In this document: piece by piece, positions 864 through 37,536 of the stretch
Numbering within the stretch: position 1 is the stretch's first letter
How the letters are laid out: each line of letters opens with the position of its first letter
Origin: a virus
DNA: 37,536 nt
Direction: 5' to 3' (one strand)
Virus record (IMG/VR): IMGVR_UViG_3300009379_000034
Span: 1-37,536 of that record
Position numbers and translations under genes: made by a program
Notes under the pieces: generated by a model
What the model saw: only the letters and a program-made list of their open reading frames with translations
Database searches by the model: none
Told to the model about the DNA's origin: nothing

Positions 864-949
<86 letters not shown>

Positions 950-952
<3 letters not shown>

Positions 953-4808: not shown

Positions 4809-5837
4809 TTATATTGCCGCCGCCACTCGCGGGACTTCCGGCAAGTTGGCCTGATAAAGCGGGTATGGTTTGGAGGCGAACCGCCACGCGATACGGGGGT
4901 CGCCATTGACACGCATGTAATGCAGAACTTCCTCAAGGCCGAGGGTGTTCATGCAGTAGTCCCATAGCTTGGGATGCGTGTAATAGAGTTGCTGGAAACG
5001 ATTCGGAACGGTGTCACTATGCATGCCGAAACAACAAAAAATGCACCCGGTACGGCTTACGCCAGTTGTCTTGAACTCCCGGCCGTGACGTATGATATCG
5101 CCATATACAGACGGGTACGGCATGTTGTGTGCTTGGATGTATTCAAGGACGTCATTCTTCATCCAAAAGGCGATAGGCTTTGACATCGGAGTGTCGCCGT
5201 CAAAGGCGTTACATCCGGTCTTGGTATAGCCAATCTCCCGCAATCTACTTTCACAAGCCATCTGGCCGGATATCTCGCCTCGGCCAGTTTCTTTCTTGAA
5301 CGCCTTGAACGGGTTTTTCTTCATCACATCACAACAGCCGTCACCAATCTTGAACGGTGCATCGACAAGGAACCGCCACCTTTGAGCAAGCTTCCAGCCT
5401 GTTGTCATTTCGCCGTCTCTGTTAATCCCGGTATCGTACAAGTGGAACATGGCCCCTTGCAGCTCTTCCGGGTAACGCAGGACACGGATAACCTTTGCCC
5501 ATTTCTTTGAAACCAGAGGCCAGCCGTGTTCCTTTATGACTTTGTGGAAAGGCATCGTCGGGCGCACGATGAAAACGTTGTCCGTGTGCTTCACATGCTT
5601 TTCGAGTTCAGGATATTCCAGGCCAGTGTTTACATGCAGGGCCGGGACTTCCGGGTAGAGAGAGCGGACAAGACGAAGAGTGACAGAGGAATCTATGCCG
5701 CCGGAATAGGTCACGACCACATTGCCGTCGTGCGCTTCGTACCACTCGCGGATACGGGCAAGGCTCATCTGAATCTTTTCAGACAATGGCAGCCCTTGGC
5801 GGCGTTTGAGTTCGGTATATTCTACGGCTTTTTTCAT
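4809..5837 (-). CDS. PAPS-reductase-family (adenine nucleotide alpha-hydrolase) protein
   Basis: A 342-aa protein with a PP-loop TYSGGIDSSV (SGGIDS at 45-50) that grips ATP or PAPS, followed by VNTGLEYPEL and many cysteines (GDGCCDVMKK, GCNAF, TGCIFCCFGMH) that could hold an iron-sulfur cluster or act in thiol chemistry. In CysH/DndC-type enzymes the domain reduces PAPS or activates an atom for sulfur transfer. The start overlaps the stop of the HNH-type gene (TAATG), so both are co-translated. Phage relatives exist widely and their substrate is not settled: DNA or tRNA sulfur modification or sulfate assimilation are the options. Confidence 0.85.
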   Translation of the reverse strand: MKKAVEYTELKRRQGLPLSEKIQMSLARIREWYEAHDGNVVVTYSGGIDSSVTLRLVRSLYPEVPALHVNTGLEYPELEKHVKHTDNVFIVRPTMPFHKVIKEHGWPLVSKKWAKVIRVLRYPEELQGAMFHLYDTGINRDGEMTTGWKLAQRWRFLVDAPFKIGDGCCDVMKKNPFKAFKKETGRGEISGQMACESRLREIGYTKTGCNAFDGDTPMSKPIAFWMKNDVLEYIQAHNMPYPSVYGDIIRHGREFKTTGVSRTGCIFCCFGMHSDTVPNRFQQLYYTHPKLWDYCMNTLGLEEVLHYMRVNGDPRIAWRFASKPYPLYQANLPEVPRVAAAI

Positions 5838-6664
5838 TATTTCCCTGCTGATTTTGAAATCTCGGACTGTGCCCGGGCAAGCTCGAACCGCTTGGAATCC
5901 AACTTGGCCATCGCAATAATTGTTGGCTTGAAATCGTCCGGAACATCGCTGAAACCGAGCCTGGTCATTTGAAGACTTTCAGCCCTGGTGAACAGGCCGA
6001 GGTTTTCAAGAACGCAGTTCAGCTTGTCACCATCCAAGAAGCGGATAACGTGTCCCTCCGGAGTGGGCCCATGAGCTCCCTCCCAAATAACGACATGCTT
6101 GTGCTTGAATCGCGTCTTTGCTTCGGTGTAAGGATTCTCTTCTTCGATCTTGACCAGGATGAAGCCATCCTTCGGGCAAATGCGCTCACTACCAAGGGCC
6201 CGAACATTTCCGGGAATATCTCCCTTTTTGAAGCTGCCGCTGTTTGGCTTGCAAATTCCTTTTCCAGCCACTCCAGCGGTCCAGGGGATATTGCCTTTTT
6301 CAAAACGACCAGTTCGTCCGCAGCGGATCTTATGGTTGTCGATGAAAGCCTCAATCTGATTGACGCCCTTGTTTGTTCCAAACTCGCGATTGAAAGCCTC
6401 AGTCAACTTGTGCTTGTCCATCGTGAGGTATCCATCTTTGATGAATCCCACTTGCTCCGGAGTGTAGGTCAGCCGCTCCCCTTTCATGAAACCGGGTTTC
6501 CGGCCACACTTGAAGCCTTCCCTTGTGAGGGTGGTCTTGATTGCATTTTCGGTCCTGCTCTGCCCAAACTTCGCATTGAATGCGGCGGTCAGTGCCGGAA
6601 CGCGCTGCGCCTTGTATTCGTCTCGCAGAAAATCAAGCTGCTCTTTGGTGTAGCTAACGCGCAT
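5837..6664 (-). CDS. HNH-type protein with two N-terminal SANT/HTH-like repeats
   Basis: A 275-aa protein. Residues 4-62 and 66-125 are two similar copies (YTKEQLDFLRDEY...CGRKPGFMKGE; YTPEQVGFIKDGY...CGRTGRFEKGN), each a likely DNA-binding helical domain. The C-terminal half has FKHKHVVIWEGAHGPTPEG followed by FLDGDKLNCVLENLGLFTRAE, the frame of HNH_3 endonucleases. The usual catalytic 'DH' before the 'NGD' turn is replaced by RF, a variant I recall from other phage proteins. It may be a divergent nuclease or a DNA-binding regulator. AGGA precedes the ATG. Confidence 0.75.
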   Translation of the reverse strand: MRVSYTKEQLDFLRDEYKAQRVPALTAAFNAKFGQSRTENAIKTTLTREGFKCGRKPGFMKGERLTYTPEQVGFIKDGYLTMDKHKLTEAFNREFGTNKGVNQIEAFIDNHKIRCGRTGRFEKGNIPWTAGVAGKGICKPNSGSFKKGDIPGNVRALGSERICPKDGFILVKIEEENPYTEAKTRFKHKHVVIWEGAHGPTPEGHVIRFLDGDKLNCVLENLGLFTRAESLQMTRLGFSDVPDDFKPTIIAMAKLDSKRFELARAQSEISKSAGK

Positions 6665-6667
6665 GGC

Positions 6668-6907
6668 TTAGTCCTGATCAATGGACAACATCGATGGAGC
6701 CCTCATGTTCCCCCCGATGGAGTTGGACGCTGCGACCTGGGCCTTGAGCACCAGGCTGGCGTTGGAAACGATCTCCTTGGCAACATTGGTCACGGCTTGC
6801 GACCTCTGAATTTCTTCCTGGAGCTTCTCGCCCTCCAACTCTTCATCGTTGAGCCGTTCCATGGCCATGAACAAATGGTCATTCAAATCGGTGAGCTTAT
6901 TCTTCAT
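6668..6907 (-). CDS. Conserved phage helical protein
   Basis: A 79-aa protein, [53 protein letters not shown], a two-helix coiled-coil type. Very similar 'LTDLN-HLF--LERL-DE-L-GE-L-EEI-R--AV' proteins are known from other prophages, often beside an HNH gene, as here (3 bp upstream of it). AGGAGG precedes the ATG. No function is established; a partner of the HNH protein is an inference. Confidence 0.72.
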
Positions 6908-6940
6908 AATTTCTTCCTCCTAAAAATTCGCTGAGAACTA

Positions 6941-7123
6941 TCAAACGGTTGTGTATTCGCCCTTGTAGGCGTGTGACATCTTGAGCCTTGCGACATTGAC
7001 GGCCTTGGTTGCCCAAGGCGTTTCTTTCGTCTTCGGCTTTGCTGGTGCATTGAAAACGCAGTAGATGTACCGCGCCCACAAAACGAGCATAGGAATCAGG
7101 ATGAAAGGTATTAGCCACTTCAT
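6941..7123 (-). CDS. Small single-pass membrane protein
   Basis: A 60-aa protein: MKWLIPFILIPMLVLWARYIYCVF is one hydrophobic segment with a short N-terminus, then a basic soluble tail. Its ATG overlaps the stop of the upstream gene (ATGA), indicating coupling. An overlapping frame (6897-7187) lacks these signs. Function unknown. Confidence 0.65.
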   Translation of the reverse strand: MKWLIPFILIPMLVLWARYIYCVFNAPAKPKTKETPWATKAVNVARLKMSHAYKGEYTTV

Positions 7124-7410
7124 GCGGTAGCCCCGGCGTAATCAATACCCACGCAATCCCAAAGCTGTTCAAAGGGAAAACCTTCATCCATGTTCAGGTC
7201 AAAGTCGTCGCGGGCTTTCTTACGGACGTTGGCACAAAATTCACAGGTCTTGTAGGTGGCGAAGTCGCCTTCCCACATACCTTCAACGCGCTGGTATATT
7301 TCGCCTGGGTCAATGGTGGCCCCGCACTCGCAACAAACATGCTGCTTGCGGGCCTTGGGCATAGACTCGCGGTAGAGTTCGCCCATGATGCAGTCTCCAA
7401 TGCTACACAT
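7120..7410 (-). CDS. Zinc-binding phage protein
   Basis: A 96-aa protein with RKQHVCCECGATIDPGEIYQRVEGMWEGDF followed by YKTCEFC, a four-cysteine zinc knuckle seen in a recurrent phage family of unknown function. ATG at 7410 is chosen over an upstream TTG (7425) because GGAGGG lies 7 bases before it and it avoids overlap with the preceding gene. Confidence 0.75.
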   Translation of the reverse strand: MCSIGDCIMGELYRESMPKARKQHVCCECGATIDPGEIYQRVEGMWEGDFATYKTCEFCANVRKKARDDFDLNMDEGFPFEQLWDCVGIDYAGATA

Positions 7411-12347: not shown

Positions 12348-12377
12348 ATAGTAACCAGTTGGGAAAGATGTTGTCAA
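12348..12377 (-). promoter_or_regulatory. Leftward early promoter (PL-like)
   Basis: On the minus strand TTGACA (12377-12372), an 18-bp spacer and TACTAT (12353-12348). An operator overlaps the -10 side (12352-12365) and a second one lies upstream of the -35 (12385-12398). It should drive the early operon down to about 2456 and be shut by the repressor in the lysogen. Confidence 0.78.
12352..12365. promoter_or_regulatory. Operator OL1 (TAACCAGTTGGGAA)
   Basis: One conserved TGGGAA half and one weaker half; it overlaps the -10 region of the leftward promoter. Its form matches the -10-proximal operator of the rightward promoter (14024-14037, TTCCCAGTTGGTTA) read on the opposite strand. Confidence 0.75.
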
Positions 12378-12384
12378 TAAAAAG

Positions 12385-12398
12385 TTCCCAACTGGGAA
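12385..12398. promoter_or_regulatory. Operator OL2 (TTCCCAACTGGGAA)
   Basis: A 14-bp palindrome with perfect TTCCCA/TGGGAA arms around 2 bp, lying upstream of the -35 box and 33 bp centre-to-centre from OL1. It is the best match of the four sites to a dimer-binding consensus. Confidence 0.78.
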
Positions 12399-12432: not shown

Positions 12433-12909
12433 TTAACGATGTTTTTTTCTGAATTGAGCGGGGGTTTGGTTGAGGCCGCCCTTGGCCCAGAAGCCGGTTT
12501 TGGCGGCTTTGGCTTCGGCCTGGGCTTTCTTGAGGTTGGCTTTGTGCTTTTTGTTGGATTTATACGGAGAGGCGAGGGCAAGACCAGCGCGGACGATCTC
12601 GGCGTTGAGCATCTTGCCGTCCTTCCAGATATAGACTTGCAAACGGTTGAAGGGGCCGTAGCGGTTCATGTCGTATTCCAGAGTGACGGGGCCGCGAGAA
12701 CAGAAATTGACAGCGAAAGCCTTGGCCTCCTTGCCGTATTCCTGTTTCCATTCCGGGGCGTCGATACCAATGAGGCGGGCGTCGGTGCGGATGCCGTGGA
12801 CTTCGATGAGCACAGAATCACCATCGCGGACCTTGAGGACGTGGGCTTGTTCTGCCCAAGCGGGGAGGGCGAAGAGGAGGCAGAAGAGAAGGACAGCAAG
12901 TGTTTTCAT
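12433..12909 (-). CDS. Secreted staphylococcal-nuclease-like protein
   Basis: A 158-aa protein. A signal peptide (MKTLAVLLFCLLFALPAWAEQ, probable cut after AWA) precedes an SNase fold. Catalytic counterparts are present: D31 in RDGDS, R45, D50 and E53 in ARLIGIDAPE, and R89 in NRLQVYIW, so it should cut DNA or RNA with calcium outside the cytoplasm. Its ATG overlaps the stop of the 49-aa gene (ATGA), making it the last gene of the repressor operon and therefore expressed in lysogens. A role in degrading incoming DNA in the periplasm is an attractive inference; nutrient scavenging is an alternative. Confidence 0.88.
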   Translation of the reverse strand: MKTLAVLLFCLLFALPAWAEQAHVLKVRDGDSVLIEVHGIRTDARLIGIDAPEWKQEYGKEAKAFAVNFCSRGPVTLEYDMNRYGPFNRLQVYIWKDGKMLNAEIVRAGLALASPYKSNKKHKANLKKAQAEAKAAKTGFWAKGGLNQTPAQFRKKHR

Positions 12910-13055
12910 TGGGATATTAGTGGGGCAAGCATCAGGTTGTTTTGATCTGGTAGGGAAATCTTCTCGTTTTCCACCAATGTATGTGTTTTTTCAGTCTGCT
13001 CTGTAAGTTCGGCAATTACGCCAAGTAGCCATGTTTCCCATTGTTCATTTTTCAT
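12906..13055 (-). CDS. 49-aa protein in the lysogeny operon
   Basis: MKNEQWETWLLGVIAELTEQTEKTHTLVENEKISLPDQNNLMLAPLISQ. It starts 3 bp after the stop of the membrane-protein gene and ends with TGA overlapping the nuclease ATG. The pattern is one amphipathic helix plus a polar tail. Tight coupling on both sides makes it a convincing gene despite its size. Function unknown; it may link the membrane protein and the nuclease. Confidence 0.68.
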   Translation of the reverse strand: MKNEQWETWLLGVIAELTEQTEKTHTLVENEKISLPDQNNLMLAPLISQ

Positions 13056-13058
13056 AAA

Positions 13059-13238
13059 CTACATCCAGTGGAGTAAGGTCCAGTAGATGGGCCAGATGGT
13101 TGCGAGGAAAATGTCTATTCCCGCACAAAAGAGCCACGCAAGGAAATTGGGTGATTCTTGCCAGTCGAGAATGACGAGGTAGATGTATGTGGCGATGTAG
13201 CCAATGCCGTAGATGATGGGGATGAAGCTGCCTCTCAT
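13059..13238 (-). CDS. Two-TM membrane protein in the lysogeny operon
   Basis: A 59-aa protein, MRGSFIPIIYGIGYIATYIYLVILDWQESPNFLAWLFCAGIDIFLATIWPIYWTLLHWM, with two hydrophobic segments joined by a short polar loop. ATG at 13238 has GGGAG 8 bases upstream and begins 2 bp after the repressor stop. Small membrane proteins next to prophage repressors often block superinfection at the envelope (superinfection exclusion); that role here is inferred from position only. Confidence 0.72.
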   Translation of the reverse strand: MRGSFIPIIYGIGYIATYIYLVILDWQESPNFLAWLFCAGIDIFLATIWPIYWTLLHWM

Positions 13239-13240
13239 GG

Positions 13241-13942
13241 TTACACTCCCTGCATTTCCCACATGACTTGGCCGACGATGAGGTCGTCTCGCTCGTCAAT
13301 GGGGACACGGGTTTCCGGGTGGTTCGGGTTCTCGGGGCGCAAGATTAATTCACCTTTGGCCGAATCGAGATAGACGCGCTTGATGGTCAATCCTTCGTAA
13401 GGGACATTGACCGCGTAGACCTTGCCGGGCACCAGCTTTTGGGCGTGGCGATTTATGCCGACGATGGCCCCGTCCTTGATGAGCGGGTCCATGGAGTCGC
13501 CCGCGACCTCCACGGCCATGAGGCCAGGGAAAAGGAAGCGGCGGGGGATGCAAATTTCACAGATCGGTTCTGCCTCGGCAATCTCGACAGGGAGGCCGCC
13601 CGCGGCGAACTGGTACACGGCGACCACGCCACCGACACCTTCGGGCATTTCGTCCCCCGGGCGAACGATGGATGCCTCTTGGGTGGTGCTGTGTGGAGAC
13701 ATCGCGGTTATTTTGGCTCCGGGAGACTGGGAAATTATCTGGTTTAGCCCGATGCCGAGAGTTGTCAGTTTGTCAATGATCGGGCCGAGCGTGTCCAGTT
13801 TTGGAGAGCGTTCACCTTTGAACCATCTAGTGAGATTGTTGACGGGCATATCGTCCAGAGCTCGAGCCATGGCGGCAGCACTGCCGAACTCGTCTTCCAT
13901 GATTTTTTCAAGCCCTTTGAGTATTTCTTTTTCAAAAGTCAT
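13241..13942 (-). CDS. CI-like prophage repressor with S24 self-cleavage domain
   Basis: A 233-aa protein. Residues 1-70 form the HTH DNA-binding domain (MARALDDMPVNNLTRWFKGERSPKLDTL). Residues about 105-230 are a LexA/UmuD-type peptidase: nucleophile S150 in VAGDSMDPLIKDG, lysine K188 in GLTIKRVY, and a probable Ala-Gly cleavage site in QFAAGGLP (114-115). RecA activation after DNA damage should trigger self-cleavage and induction. It should bind the TTCCCAnnTGGGAA operators. It faces the Cro-like gene and heads a four-gene operon. Confidence 0.93.
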   Translation of the reverse strand: MTFEKEILKGLEKIMEDEFGSAAAMARALDDMPVNNLTRWFKGERSPKLDTLGPIIDKLTTLGIGLNQIISQSPGAKITAMSPHSTTQEASIVRPGDEMPEGVGGVVAVYQFAAGGLPVEIAEAEPICEICIPRRFLFPGLMAVEVAGDSMDPLIKDGAIVGINRHAQKLVPGKVYAVNVPYEGLTIKRVYLDSAKGELILRPENPNHPETRVPIDERDDLIVGQVMWEMQGV

Positions 13943-13991: not shown

Positions 13992-14005
13992 TCTCCAGTT
14001 GGGAA
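13992..14005. promoter_or_regulatory. Operator OR2 (TCTCCAGTTGGGAA)
   Basis: Matches the TTCCCA/TGGGAA palindrome at 12 of 14 positions with the conserved TGGGAA half. It lies just upstream of the -35 box of the rightward promoter and 50 bp from the repressor start, so it could also control repressor synthesis. Confidence 0.7.
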
Positions 14006-14011
14006 ACATGG

Positions 14012-14041
14012 TTGACTCTATCTTTCCCAGTTGGTTACAAT
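14012..14041 (+). promoter_or_regulatory. Rightward early promoter (PR-like)
   Basis: TTGACT (14012-14017), 18-bp spacer, TACAAT (14036-14041). The expected start of transcription, 7-8 bases further, coincides with the ATG at 14049, so the first message would be leaderless. Operators flank the -35 and overlap the -10. Confidence 0.8.
14024..14037. promoter_or_regulatory. Operator OR1 (TTCCCAGTTGGTTA)
   Basis: A full TTCCCA half-site with a weaker second half, overlapping the -10 box of the rightward promoter. It is 32 bp centre-to-centre from OR2, nearly the same as the 33 bp between the two leftward operators. Confidence 0.73.
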
Positions 14042-14048
14042 GCGGGGC

Positions 14049-14255
14049 ATGAACATACGAAAAGATTTGCAGGAAATGTTTAAGGCTACAGGGTGGACCC
14101 CTTCCAGGTTGAGCCGTGAGAGTGGGGTGCCTGTCAACGTCATTACCCGGTATTTGAAAAAAGAACGGGAAATGAGGACCGACACGCTTGAAAAGCTCTG
14201 GCCCTACATCTACGGGGACAAACGGCCCAAGGATATCCCCGAGGGCGCCGCGTAG
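14049..14255 (+). CDS. Cro-like HTH regulator
   Basis: A 68-aa protein, MNIRKDLQEMFKATGWTPSRLSRESGVPVNVITRYLKKEREMRTDTLEKLW, a single HTH domain of the Cro/C1 type (SRLSRESGVPVNVITRYL is the HTH). It is divergent from the repressor and transcribed from the promoter at 14012. ATG at 14049 is preferred because the promoter would start RNA there; the ATG at 14040 lies inside the -10 box. It should compete with the repressor at the shared operators during lytic growth. Confidence 0.85.
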   Translation: MNIRKDLQEMFKATGWTPSRLSRESGVPVNVITRYLKKEREMRTDTLEKLWPYIYGDKRPKDIPEGAA

Positions 14256-14263
14256 TGGCCCGC

Positions 14264-14527
14264 CTACTCCATGGGCAGGGCCGCCCGCAAGTGTACCAGC
14301 CGACCGGCTGGCTTTTCTTTGGGCGGCGGGCCGGGGGCGGTCGCACTCTTGGCGTTCAGGTAGTTCACAGCCGACGCGGCAACATCCCCATAGGCTGCAT
14401 ACGGATCAACGCCAGCGGCCAACACGATTCTGAAAAACCGCACCGTTTTCCCGGAAACCATCACAGCCGTGGCCAGGTGCGAACCGTCCGGCTTGCGTTT
14501 GAAATGGATGCTCACTTTCAAATTCAT
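14264..14527 (-). CDS. Hypothetical protein opposite to the early rightward operon
   Basis: An 87-aa frame, MNLKVSIHFKRKPDGSHLATAVMVSGKTVRFFRIVLAAGVDPYAAYGDVAASAVNYLN..., has believable strand/helix patterning and codon use, unlike the overlapping + frame (14255-14587), which is rich in R, G, H and P. No clear ribosome site precedes the ATG. Being antisense to the rightward transcript, it could be expressed mainly in the lysogen. A spurious frame is still possible. Confidence 0.5.
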   Translation of the reverse strand: MNLKVSIHFKRKPDGSHLATAVMVSGKTVRFFRIVLAAGVDPYAAYGDVAASAVNYLNAKSATAPGPPPKEKPAGRLVHLRAALPME

Positions 14528-14586: not shown

Positions 14587-15030
14587 ATGCCGACTCTTAC
14601 CGAGATTGTGCGCGACATGGTTTTCAACAGCGGCGTTCCGGCCAAGTCAATCGCCCAGGAACTCAGGAAGTCATACACGACTTTCCTGCGGGAGCTTAAC
14701 CCGGATGACGACGGGGCGAAGCTCGGGGCGGATGCGCTCAAGATCATCATGGAGAAATGCAAAGAGGTCACGCCACTCCGTCACCTTGCGATGCAACTAG
14801 GCTACCGCCTCATGCCCCTCACCGGCGTCACGCCCGACAAGGCCACGCTTTCCGAAGAGGTTAACGACGACGTGCAAGTCCTGGCCCCGCTTCAGGCGGC
14901 CTTGCTCGACGTGCAAAACACCACGCTCGAGGATGCGGAAGCGTTGGCGATGCGGATGCATCTTGAGATTGATGAGAACCTTGTTGCATTTCGGCAAGAA
15001 AAATTGAGCCTCATGAAGAAAGCAGGGTAG
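14587..15030 (+). CDS. Phage regulatory protein CII family
   Basis: A 147-aa protein. MPTLTEIVRDMVFNSGVPAKSIAQELRKSYTTFLRELNPDDDGAKLGADALKIIMEKCKEVTPLRHLAMQLGYRL has the pattern of the CII-type (PF06892-like) phage regulators: an HTH with 'K-Y-T-LRELNP-D-GAKLG'. GGAGGG lies about 10 bases before the ATG. It is the first gene after the Cro-like gene, the classic CII place, and may activate lysogeny promoters. Confidence 0.85.
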   Translation: MPTLTEIVRDMVFNSGVPAKSIAQELRKSYTTFLRELNPDDDGAKLGADALKIIMEKCKEVTPLRHLAMQLGYRLMPLTGVTPDKATLSEEVNDDVQVLAPLQAALLDVQNTTLEDAEALAMRMHLEIDENLVAFRQEKLSLMKKAG

Positions 15031-24269: not shown

Positions 24270-24854
24270 ATGGCTGATAGTGTAATCGCAATCTGTAATA
24301 ACGCGCTTCTGGATTTGGGCGAAGATGTCATCATGTCGCTGGGTGACGAAAGCAAGGCGGCAGGGCTTTGCAATCACCGTTGGCCCGCGATCCGGGACGC
24401 GGTTCTCCGCGCGCATCCGTGGAACTGTGCCATGACCCAGGCCGAGCTTGCCGCCGGAACCACGGCCCCGTTGTGGAAGTGGGAATACAAGTACAATCTG
24501 CCGACCGACTTTCTCCGCATCGTCATGATAGTCGGTCAAGACGGCGAGGAAATTGCAGACTGGGAAATCCAAGGCTGCATTATCCTCTGTAACGAGGCAG
24601 CCCCGATCTATATTTCATACGTCCGGCGCGAGAATGATCCGAAGAAGTACGACGCACTTCTCGACGAAGCTCTCGCGGCCCGGCTGGCTGCTACGTTGGC
24701 TTATTCTCTTTCCGGGTCTACTTCTCTGGCTCAATCCTATTGGTCTGTCTACCAGCAGAAACTTGCGGAAGCTCGAGGCGTTGACGCGCGCGAAGGGGTG
24801 CCCGAATCCTTGACGCCCACGTCTTGGTTGGGCGCAAAGATGGGGAGACGTTAA
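24270..24854 (+). CDS. Tail tubular protein A-like (gp11) adaptor
   Basis: A 194-aa protein: SVIAICNNALLDLGEDVIMSLGDESKAAGLCNHRWPAIRDAVLRAHPWNCAMTQAELA, LPTDFLRIVMIVGQD and a helical C-terminus are standard for T7 gp11-like adaptors joining portal and nozzle. ATG at 24270 has GGAGG 7 bases upstream; the longer frame from 24213 has none. Confidence 0.87.
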   Translation: MADSVIAICNNALLDLGEDVIMSLGDESKAAGLCNHRWPAIRDAVLRAHPWNCAMTQAELAAGTTAPLWKWEYKYNLPTDFLRIVMIVGQDGEEIADWEIQGCIILCNEAAPIYISYVRRENDPKKYDALLDEALAARLAATLAYSLSGSTSLAQSYWSVYQQKLAEARGVDAREGVPESLTPTSWLGAKMGRR

Positions 24855-26608
24855 TGAGCATTTCAACCCCGGCACTTACCAATTTTACAGGCGGCGAGAT
24901 CAGCCCGCGCCTTGATGGTCGTGTCGATCTCTCCAAGTATTTTAACGGGTGCAAGAAGTTGGAAAACTTCCTTGTGCACCCACACGGCGGGGCAACCCGT
25001 CGCAATGGTTTCCGATTTGTTGCCGAGGCGAAGCACCACGACAAGAAAGTCGGCCTGTTGCCGTTCGAGTTCAATGCGAGTCAGACTTATATGCTCGAGT
25101 TTGGTGATTTCTACATGAGGGTTTACCACGACCGCGGCAAAGTCATGACCGAAGCGGACCCGGATGTCCTGTACGAGCGGGCAACCCCGTTTACCGCGGA
25201 CCAACTCGACGGCCTGTATTTCGCCCAGAGCGCGGATACCATGTATATCGTGCACCCCAGTCACAAGCCCCAGAAGCTACAGCGCATCAATCATGATGAC
25301 TGGACACTCGCGGACGTTGCCTGGACCGGGGAGCCCTCGGACTGGGACGCGGACAATTACCCGTCCGTGGTTGGCTTCTATCAACAGCGGCTTGTAATCG
25401 GGGGAACCCCGAACCAGCCAAATACGCTTTGGCTCTCCAAGTCCGCCGGTATCTTCGACGATCTCACCATCGGTACCGCCGATGATATGGGCATGAAGTA
25501 CACCTTTGACTCCGAGTCCATGGACATCATCAACGGCCTAGCTCTAGGCAGCAAGCGGCTTGTCGTACTCACTGAGGGAGGCGAATGGACCATCGGCGCG
25601 GGATCGTTCGACTCGGAAGTCTTGACCCCGACCAATGTGAAGGCCGACCAGTGGACTACCGTGGGGAGTGAAGGGATTAGACCGATCCGTACGTCTAATG
25701 CAGTCCTGTTCTTCGATGCCAGTGGTCAGCGGCTCCATGAACTGGCCTACGTCTTTGAGAGTGACGGTTTCGCAACCCCGGATTTGACCCTCCTGGCCGA
25801 GCATATGGGCAGCCACCATCGCTTTATTGATTCGGCATTTGCGAGGACACCGGAGTCCGTCATGTTCGCCGTGAGGGATGACGGCGTTTTGTGCGGCCTG
25901 ACCTACGCCCGGGATCATGAGGTTGTGGCCTGGCACCGCCACCTTACCGATGGCGTTTTCGAGGCTGTTGCCGCTATCCACGGTGGGGACCGAACTGAGG
26001 TCTGGGTCGTAGTCAAGCGCACGGTGAACGGGCAAGACAAGCGTTTTATCGAACTTCTCGACGGCCCGTTCAATGGCAACATTGAGGATGCCTTTTTCCT
26101 TGATTGCGGACTCAGTTACTCCGAAGGAAGCCCGACTCGGGACTTTACCGGAGCCGATCATCTGGCGGGATGCACTGTTTCCGCGCTGGTGGATGGAGCT
26201 GTACACCCGGATGTTGCCATCGCCCAGGACGGCACCTTCTCGCTTGATCGGGATGCCACAAAGGTCCATATCGGATTTTCATACACATCGAAGCTGCAGC
26301 CCATGAGGCTCGAAGGCGGGAGCCAAAGAGGTACAGCCCAGACAAAGAAAAAGCGGATCACGAAAGTATCAGCGCGATTTCATGAAACCCTGGGCGGCAA
26401 GATCGGCCCGGACGAAACGCATCTGGAACCCGTGTATTTCCGCTCCCCGAGTACGCCGATGGGCCAGTCCGCCGGGGCTTGGTCGGGCGACAAAACAGTC
26501 AATTTTCCCAAAGGGTGGAACAAAGACGGGCTTCTCACCATCGTCCAGGACCAGCCGCTCCCGATGACGGTTCTTATGGTGGTGCCCGAACAGGTGATTA
26601 ACCAATGA
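24854..26608 (+). CDS. Tail tubular protein B-like (nozzle)
   Basis: A 584-aa protein. STPALTNFTGGEISPRLDGRVDLSKYFNGCKKLENFLVHPHGGATRRNGFRFVAEAK is the signature start of podovirus nozzle proteins, and ADTMYIVHPSHKPQKLQR follows. ATG overlaps the previous stop (TAATG). It forms the tail tube tip through which DNA and ejection proteins pass. Confidence 0.9.
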   Translation: MSISTPALTNFTGGEISPRLDGRVDLSKYFNGCKKLENFLVHPHGGATRRNGFRFVAEAKHHDKKVGLLPFEFNASQTYMLEFGDFYMRVYHDRGKVMTEADPDVLYERATPFTADQLDGLYFAQSADTMYIVHPSHKPQKLQRINHDDWTLADVAWTGEPSDWDADNYPSVVGFYQQRLVIGGTPNQPNTLWLSKSAGIFDDLTIGTADDMGMKYTFDSESMDIINGLALGSKRLVVLTEGGEWTIGAGSFDSEVLTPTNVKADQWTTVGSEGIRPIRTSNAVLFFDASGQRLHELAYVFESDGFATPDLTLLAEHMGSHHRFIDSAFARTPESVMFAVRDDGVLCGLTYARDHEVVAWHRHLTDGVFEAVAAIHGGDRTEVWVVVKRTVNGQDKRFIELLDGPFNGNIEDAFFLDCGLSYSEGSPTRDFTGADHLAGCTVSALVDGAVHPDVAIAQDGTFSLDRDATKVHIGFSYTSKLQPMRLEGGSQRGTAQTKKKRITKVSARFHETLGGKIGPDETHLEPVYFRSPSTPMGQSAGAWSGDKTVNFPKGWNKDGLLTIVQDQPLPMTVLMVVPEQVINQ

Positions 26609-36695: not shown

Positions 36696-36755
36696 GGCCT
36701 GTCACGCCGGAGGCCGCGAGTTCGAGTCTCGTCGGCTCCGCCACTAAAGATCAAG
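36696..36755 (+). other. attR: attR: right copy of the 60-bp attachment-site repeat
   Basis: Perfect copy of 893-952, containing only the anticodon-to-CCA part of tRNA-Asp (to 36743) and the start of a terminator arm. Sequence before 36696 is phage. Together with attL it defines a prophage of 35,803 bp. Confidence 0.95.
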
Positions 36756-36790
36756 GATTTCAAGCGATTAGCTTGAGATCCTTTTTCTTT
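36753..36790 (+). terminator. Second copy of the tRNA-Asp terminator hairpin
   Basis: AAGGATTTCAAGC (36753-36765) pairs with GCTTGAGATCCTT (36771-36783), followed by a T-rich run. Relative to the left copy, two stem pairs are exchanged in a compensating way. Confidence 0.85.
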
Positions 36791-37536
36791 TGCCAATCGT
36801 TTTCCAGTCTGGTGGGCCCGGTGTTCAAGCCGCCTTCCAATATTTTTAGATGGGGCCTGATCGGTTCCATGCCGCGAACGTACCTTTCGGTAGTCGCAAG
36901 CTTCTTGTGCCGCAGGATTTGCTGGATAGCGATCATGGGCACATTATTGTTTGCAAGGATGGATGCTGTAAGGTGCCGGATGGCGTGGCAGCCAAAAGGC
37001 TTCACCCCGGCTTCTTCACAAAGCTTCTGGGGGAATCCTCGGTTCTCGCCATAGGGTTTGCCTTCACAACGGCCTGAGGGCTGTGTGAAGACCCATTCAT
37101 TGACGGTCTCTTGCCTATGAGCAAGCAGGATATTGAAAAGCTCGTCCGTCATGGGGAGCCATTCATATTCCATAGAGCCGTCTTGTCGTTTCTTGGTTCC
37201 GAGTCGAACGCGCTTCCCGCCAAAGTCTACATCTCCCCATTGAAGCTTGTAGAGCTCCCCGCGCCTCGCTGCCGTATGCAGAAAGGTCGTGAGCAGGACT
37301 TTGTTTTGCCCCTCAGACTGATCGAGTACCTTTCTGAAGTCCTTTTCTGGGGGGACATATCTGTTCTGTCGCACTTCGGGAAAGCGGGGAACTGCCAGAA
37401 ACGGATTCAAGGCAGGGAAGCCTTCAAGGAACTTGATTCCAAAGTTCCAAGCTGCCGCCATGTTTTTCCGTTTCTTGTTGACAGAGTAACCGCTACGTTT
37501 CTTGAAGAGCTTTTGAAGGTACTTCAGCGCGTCCAT
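36760..37536 (-). CDS. Integrase of a second element at the same site (5' part beyond the window)
   Basis: 258 residues of a tyrosine integrase that continues past the end of the window. The catalytic set is present: R in HTAARRGEL, H and R in HAIRH, H in ILRHK and Y in TTERYV. It is clearly related to the first integrase along its length but differs at many positions, so it is not a copy. It ends in KKKDLKLIA, nearly the same as the first integrase, inside the terminator hairpin. It marks a second prophage or island in tandem behind the first. The ATG at 37534-37536 is probably internal. Confidence 0.93.
   Translation of the reverse strand: MDALKYLQKLFKKRSGYSVNKKRKNMAAAWNFGIKFLEGFPALNPFLAVPRFPEVRQNRYVPPEKDFRKVLDQSEGQNKVLLTTFLHTAARRGELYKLQWGDVDFGGKRVRLGTKKRQDGSMEYEWLPMTDELFNILLAHRQETVNEWVFTQPSGRCEGKPYGENRGFPQKLCEEAGVKPFGCHAIRHLTASILANNNVPMIAIQQILRHKKLATTERYVRGMEPIRPHLKILEGGLNTGPTRLENDWQKKKDLKLIA

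Follow-up and report, generated by a model that had tools for sequence, protein, structure and literature searches.

A lambda-type prophage immunity operon with a predicted exported nuclease as repressor-linked cargo

Why should a phage repressor share an operon with a nuclease that appears to be secreted? We analyzed this question in a window of 37,536 bases (55% G+C), which is the whole of virus record IMGVR_UViG_3300009379_000034. Two attachment sites were found in the window:

893..952, no strand: attL, 3' end of tRNA-Asp (864-940), exact repeat of 36696-36755
36696..36755, no strand: attR, exact repeat of 893-952, about 60 nt

As the exact repeat includes the 3' end of the tRNA-Asp, the repressor-nuclease unit lies inside an integrated prophage. 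An integrase gene (957-2069) adjoins attL. A second integrase gene is located directly past attR (36760-37536), a sign that a further element may lie in tandem in this tRNA-Asp. A tail protein (24824-26608) is similar to tail tubular protein B of Pelagibacter podoviruses, and this phage kinship points to a Gram-negative host. In the leftward early operon, a PAPS-reductase-like protein (PF01507; 4809-5837, minus strand) abuts an HNH endonuclease (5837-6664, minus strand).

The initial annotation had described four abutting or overlapping leftward genes headed by a repressor, and our analysis confirmed this arrangement. The genes of the unit and of the adjoining rightward operon are as follows:

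13241..13942, minus strand: CI-like repressor with S24 peptidase domain (PF00717, E 1.2e-14; phrog_4, E 3e-22)
13059..13238, minus strand: two-TM protein, 59 aa from ATG (67 aa from an upstream GTG), called from hydropathy and codon use
12906..13055, minus strand: 49-aa ORF with weak coding signal, overlapping the nuclease start (ATGA)
12433..12909, minus strand: predicted exported staphylococcal-nuclease (SNase) homologue, 158 aa (PF00565, predicted Sec signal peptide)
14049..14255, plus strand: Cro-like HTH protein, gene 1 of the rightward early operon (PF13443, E 2e-5)
14587..15030, plus strand: CII-like regulator (PF06892, E 2e-8)

Within the unit, cI and the two-TM gene are separated by 2 nt, the two-TM gene and the 49-aa ORF by 3 nt, and the 49-aa ORF overlaps the nuclease gene by 4 nt (ATGA). 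Codon use supports coding for cI, for the nuclease and for the two-TM gene, which has a coding-like GC3 of 0.73 and a GGGAG ribosome site; its product shows two hydrophobic segments and a C-terminal LATIWPIYW motif. Support is weak for the 49-aa ORF (GC3 0.39), for which comparisons with family libraries and relative loci returned no family or homologue. No obvious ribosome site precedes the nuclease gene, the translation of which is thus probably coupled to the 49-aa ORF. It is likely that this ORF serves as a translational coupler, and it possibly does not encode a functional protein. A 12-nt match between the ORF start and OR was rejected as chance-level. Between cro and cII, antisense to the pR operon, we noted an 87-aa ORF (14264-14527, minus strand) in the region that a pRE-type transcript toward cI would cross; it is kept in a sister phage (L002:4887-5150, plus strand).

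A whole-window scan revealed an operator frame around the unit that is absent from the initial annotation, formed by four strong palindromes in two pairs:

12352..12365, no strand: OL1-like operator, TAACCAGTTGGGAA, within the pL spacer (12/14 to palindrome TTCCCAACTGGGAA)
12385..12398, no strand: OL2-like operator, perfect palindrome match TTCCCAACTGGGAA
12348..12377, minus strand: promoter-like pL, TTGACA-18-TACTAT, serving the leftward early operon that starts at 12349
13992..14005, no strand: OR2-like operator, TCTCCAGTTGGGAA, on the cI side (12/14 to the palindrome)
14024..14037, no strand: OR1-like operator, TTCCCAGTTGGTTA, within the pR spacer (12/14 to the palindrome)
14012..14041, plus strand: promoter-like pR, TTGACT-18-TACAAT, preceding the Cro-like gene

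These four 14-mers (starting at 12352, 12385, 13992 and 14024) are the only ones in the whole window with at least 12 matches to the palindrome. The pairs are mirror images with spacings of 33 and 32 bp, and the OR and OL regions share a 32-nt inverted match (81%). One pair is located with pR upstream of cI, the other with pL just past the nuclease gene, and pL and pR are the only promoter-like matches between 11.8 and 14.7 kb. The cI-to-nuclease unit is thus positioned between OR and OL, as is cI-rexA-rexB in lambda. With cI and cro divergent, and with one operator pair at pR and a second at pL, the region has the anatomy of a lambda-type immunity region. From this position we infer lysogenic expression of the cargo genes. 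The earlier claim that they are on in the lysogen is in line with this architecture and with our finding no other strong promoter, and expression of the unit in the lysogenic phase appears well supported on these grounds. On the minus strand, the OL2 palindrome (12385-12398) is followed by a T run; this terminator-like hairpin may form a weak end of the cI operon.

We compared the nuclease to SNases of known structure. Its nuclease domain matches the PF00565 profile with an E of 1.3e-19 (71 bits; cut-off 21), and a PDB search matched it to thermonuclease (E 6.5e-21). Arg-45, Glu-53 and Arg-89 align with the SNase catalytic residues Arg-35, Glu-43 and Arg-87, and Asp-31 and Asp-50 with the calcium-binding Asp-21 and Asp-40. 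The AlphaFold model (mean pLDDT 91.6) was matched by Foldseek to staphylococcal nuclease (E 8e-12), with TM values of ~0.72 (query) and 0.83-0.86 (target), in agreement with an OB-fold. The N-terminal stretch, MKTLAVLLFCLLFALPAWA-E, has the features of a Sec signal peptide ending AWA-E. Profile, residues and modeled fold together place the protein in the SNase family and predict that it is active, and the notion that it is exported with its catalytic residues intact holds at the level of sequence. The window's enzyme has the fold, catalytic residues and predicted export in common with staphylococcal nuclease (thermonuclease, PF00565) but is prophage-encoded and repressor-linked, and contains three additional residues (GPF) before the Arg-87 equivalent. 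Searches with the nuclease and the repressor of the window as single proteins returned no relatives, and no close relative of the nuclease emerged from the sequence searches. The first GenBank nuclease matches, mostly from Staphylococcus/Bacillus phages or Staphylococcus host DNA, were uninformative on gene context.

We next asked if the linkage to a repressor recurs. Two IMG/VR scans picked loci by nuclease sequence alone, and a nuclease was counted as linked if an S24 repressor preceded it on the same strand by no more than 2.5 kb. In the second scan, this was the case for 24 of 46 dereplicated SNases, a fraction that describes one branch, as the seeds included repressor-linked nucleases; random other ORFs from the same loci gave 5.0 +/- 1.8 (at most 14 in 2000 draws). 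With dereplication at 70%, linkage was found for 14/28 SNases (control 2.8 +/- 1.4). The first scan, seeded without regard to context, yielded 3 linked nucleases among 23, versus 0.7 in the control. At least three further SNase loci (L028, L037, L093) contain an HTH-only repressor-like gene, as judged by eye. In one locus (L015), Cro and OR precede an S24 repressor, which is followed in turn by a multi-TM protein, a TM protein with a signal, the exported SNase (4-nt overlap), a HicB/HicA-like pair and OL; 49-nt mirror operators are found at both ends, with the nuclease between OR and OL. An operator-like site lies just past this nuclease gene (L015:6502-6519), and the HicB/HicA-like pair (6650-7236) follows before OL. 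In GenBank, Moraxella phage Mcat8 has an SNase 13 nt downstream of an S24 repressor, and in Curvibacter phage TJ1 one protein separates the two. In Mae-JY22 (labelled as a Microcystis phage), a regulator-like gene that diverges from an HTH gene is followed by a secreted protein and an SNase, the repressor being called by position and eye only. Our literature search, in which coverage of subscription papers was limited, returned no description of repressor-linked SNases. Together, these findings indicate that the window's nuclease is one case of a recurrent cargo class found in many unrelated temperate phages. The cargo slot after cI is of a known kind, and the exported-SNase class in it appears undescribed in the literature searched.

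The initial annotation had treated the cargo as a triad of genes acting together, to be sought beside other repressors. The exported SNase does recur there, but the three genes need not go together: repressor-linked nucleases are found with different partners or with none. At many SNase loci, small membrane or secreted proteins are encoded between repressor and nuclease, and none of these intervening proteins showed likeness to the window's two-TM protein. Relatives of the latter were found in L158 and L159 (40%) and in L160 (36%), all with the LATIWPIYW motif; there, the start of the two-TM gene and the stop of an HTH-only repressor-like gene overlap, and no nuclease is present. In three phage lineages, a gene of the LATIWPIYW family thus starts at or overlaps a repressor-like stop, whether a nuclease is present or not (L158:3959-4150, L160:3950-4135, window 13059-13238). 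With the 49-aa ORF weak as well, we dropped the idea of one conserved set, and a joint mechanism of the triad is not supported. Two-TM genes without nuclease and SNases without the two-TM protein mark the two as independent repressor-linked modules, which meet in this well-anchored immunity-region operon.

The closest backbone relative of the window is the sister phage L002 (~70% in the AAA protein, same neighbors); a second scan with an AAA-protein alignment, run on genome contigs, returned no relatives. L002 has a different repressor, different operators (GTTTCCGTGCGGATAC) and, between cI and OL, a 213-aa lipoprotein (lipobox LAGC). This locus (L002:5249-7010), with its lipoprotein in the cargo slot, points to a swap of whole immunity cassettes, and it appears that envelope-directed cargo is exchanged along with the repressor and its operators.

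How does this cargo compare to known systems? The slot downstream of the repressor holds the anti-phage genes rexAB and bstA (PMC8585504), and RexABpp of Pseudomonas putida prophage P1 is anti-phage cargo in the same slot (PMC12894663). Like lambda cI-rexA-rexB and RexABpp, the window's unit has its cargo after cI on the same strand, includes a membrane protein and, by its architecture, would be expressed in lysogeny. Its cargo, however, consists of a predicted exported nuclease and a 59-aa two-TM protein, not of a DNA-binding sensor and an ion channel. The 59-aa and 49-aa proteins differ plainly in size from RexA/RexB and have no match in Pfam, PHROG, NCBIfam or PADLOC, libraries that may lack Rex models. 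BstA of prophage BTP1 is encoded directly after the repressor, presumably from the same promoter, and recurs in diverse Gram-negative prophages (PMC8585504). Its location is analogous to that of the window's cargo, but BstA is an abortive-infection protein that localizes to phage replication sites, whereas the nuclease is predicted to be secreted; the libraries scanned, which may lack a BstA model, gave no BstA match. SNIPE is a membrane nuclease that cuts DNA during injection (PMC13190303), and cutting of phage DNA at the envelope on entry is what we propose for the window's enzyme. SNIPE combines DUF4041 and a cytoplasmic GIY-YIG domain in a single membrane-anchored protein; in contrast, the window's protein is an SNase with a cleavable signal, in which the domain libraries identified the SNase domain alone and neither DUF4041 nor GIY-YIG.

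We favor, with somewhat better than even confidence, a prophage immunity-region operon in which the nuclease acts as a lysogeny-expressed envelope DNA barrier, destruction of incoming DNA being its selected function. In the lysogen, the lytic promoters would be repressed, and a pRM-type promoter situated between OR and OL would drive leftward transcription of cI and the downstream genes. The last gene of the unit would export a calcium-type SNase to the envelope, most likely to the periplasm of a Gram-negative host, where it would cut naked double-stranded DNA that passes or stalls there before reaching the cytoplasm. The chromosome and the prophage would be spared by compartment. The two-TM protein perhaps stalls the DNA of superinfecting phages, in a SieA- or Imm-like manner. 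T4 Imm together with host endonuclease I provides a precedent for periplasmic destruction of superinfecting DNA. Superinfection exclusion would be a plausible role; the word nuclease is absent from a review of superinfection exclusion (PMC11436027). Against the barrier, the DNA of phages, as in P22, often traverses the periplasm inside a protein conduit, in which a free nuclease might not reach it (PMC10883804). In addition, two-TM protein and nuclease are inconsistently paired, the window's nuclease is 25-39% identical to the SNases compared, and several relatives are located near lysis or other genes.

Which DNA would be the target? The anti-phage slot and SNIPE speak for phage DNA, the P22 conduit and the prophage nucleases that block transformation against a simple phage role, and we have divided our confidence in the barrier accordingly. 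Superinfecting phage DNA is a tentative first choice, placed slightly ahead of transforming DNA, itself a possible but rather doubtful target. The broader proposal that repressor-linked exported SNases form a widespread, undescribed type of lysogen-expressed superinfection exclusion, with periplasmic cutting on entry, self/non-self discrimination by compartment and a stalling of injection by small membrane partners, for example the LATIWPIYW two-TM family, is speculative, and we consider it rather unlikely in this full form.

The strongest rival is a nuclease that acts purely against transformation: it would degrade extracellular or periplasmic DNA and thereby prevent curing of the prophage by recombination with prophage-free DNA, with no exclusion of phages. 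Natural competence is a trait of Moraxella catarrhalis, which Mcat8 infects, and YokF, a prophage DNase of B. subtilis, itself belongs to the SNase family. Secreted prophage nucleases block natural transformation (PMC4774983; PMC4372405; PMC11472951), with CJIE1 Dns, the CJIE2/CJIE4 nucleases and YokF lowering it 10- to 1000-fold (PMC4774983; PMC4372405). Dns and YokF are exported nucleases of mobile elements that are expressed by the lysogen, as we propose for the window's enzyme, whose SNase domain, sequence-predicted signal peptide and prophage ends agree with an exported nuclease encoded by a lysogenic element; loss of natural transformation is their documented effect. The varied neighbors of the repressor-linked SNases are in keeping with a free secreted nuclease, which can act without a partner. 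The immunity-region slot, however, is best known for anti-phage genes, and we regard this explanation as possible yet improbable.

Less likely still, the nuclease could act outside the cell on environmental DNA, for nutrient or phosphate gain, a change in biofilm or the clearing of DNA from lysed siblings, as a general benefit of lysogenic conversion. Secreted nucleases do so elsewhere (PMC4372405), and the Mcat8 relative carries a C-terminal Excalibur domain. Taken alone, this function leaves unexplained why the repressor operon is strongly preferred over other lysogeny-expressed positions. It seems quite improbable that the two-TM protein is the true exclusion factor, blocking injection, with nuclease and 49-aa ORF as unrelated passengers in the slot: its family does occur directly after repressor-like genes without a nuclease, and the inner-membrane protein SieA blocks injection (PMC10883804), but the SNase-repressor linkage recurs independently, which makes a mere passenger role of the nuclease unlikely. 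A lytic-phase role in host DNA degradation or packaging is very improbable, for although some phage SNases are found near lysis genes (L114, L123), the window's nuclease has an export signal and belongs to the repressor unit, which is located upstream of OL/pL and oriented against the late genes; a cytoplasmic function is likewise disfavored by the signal peptide and the position of the gene.

The slot after cI is a proven source of phage-defense genes (rexAB, bstA). An exported nuclease that recurs in this slot well above control genes is thus a testable candidate for a prophage-made envelope DNA barrier, and the repressor-linked nucleases allow one to ask if prophages defend themselves in this way against other phages or against their own removal by transformation.
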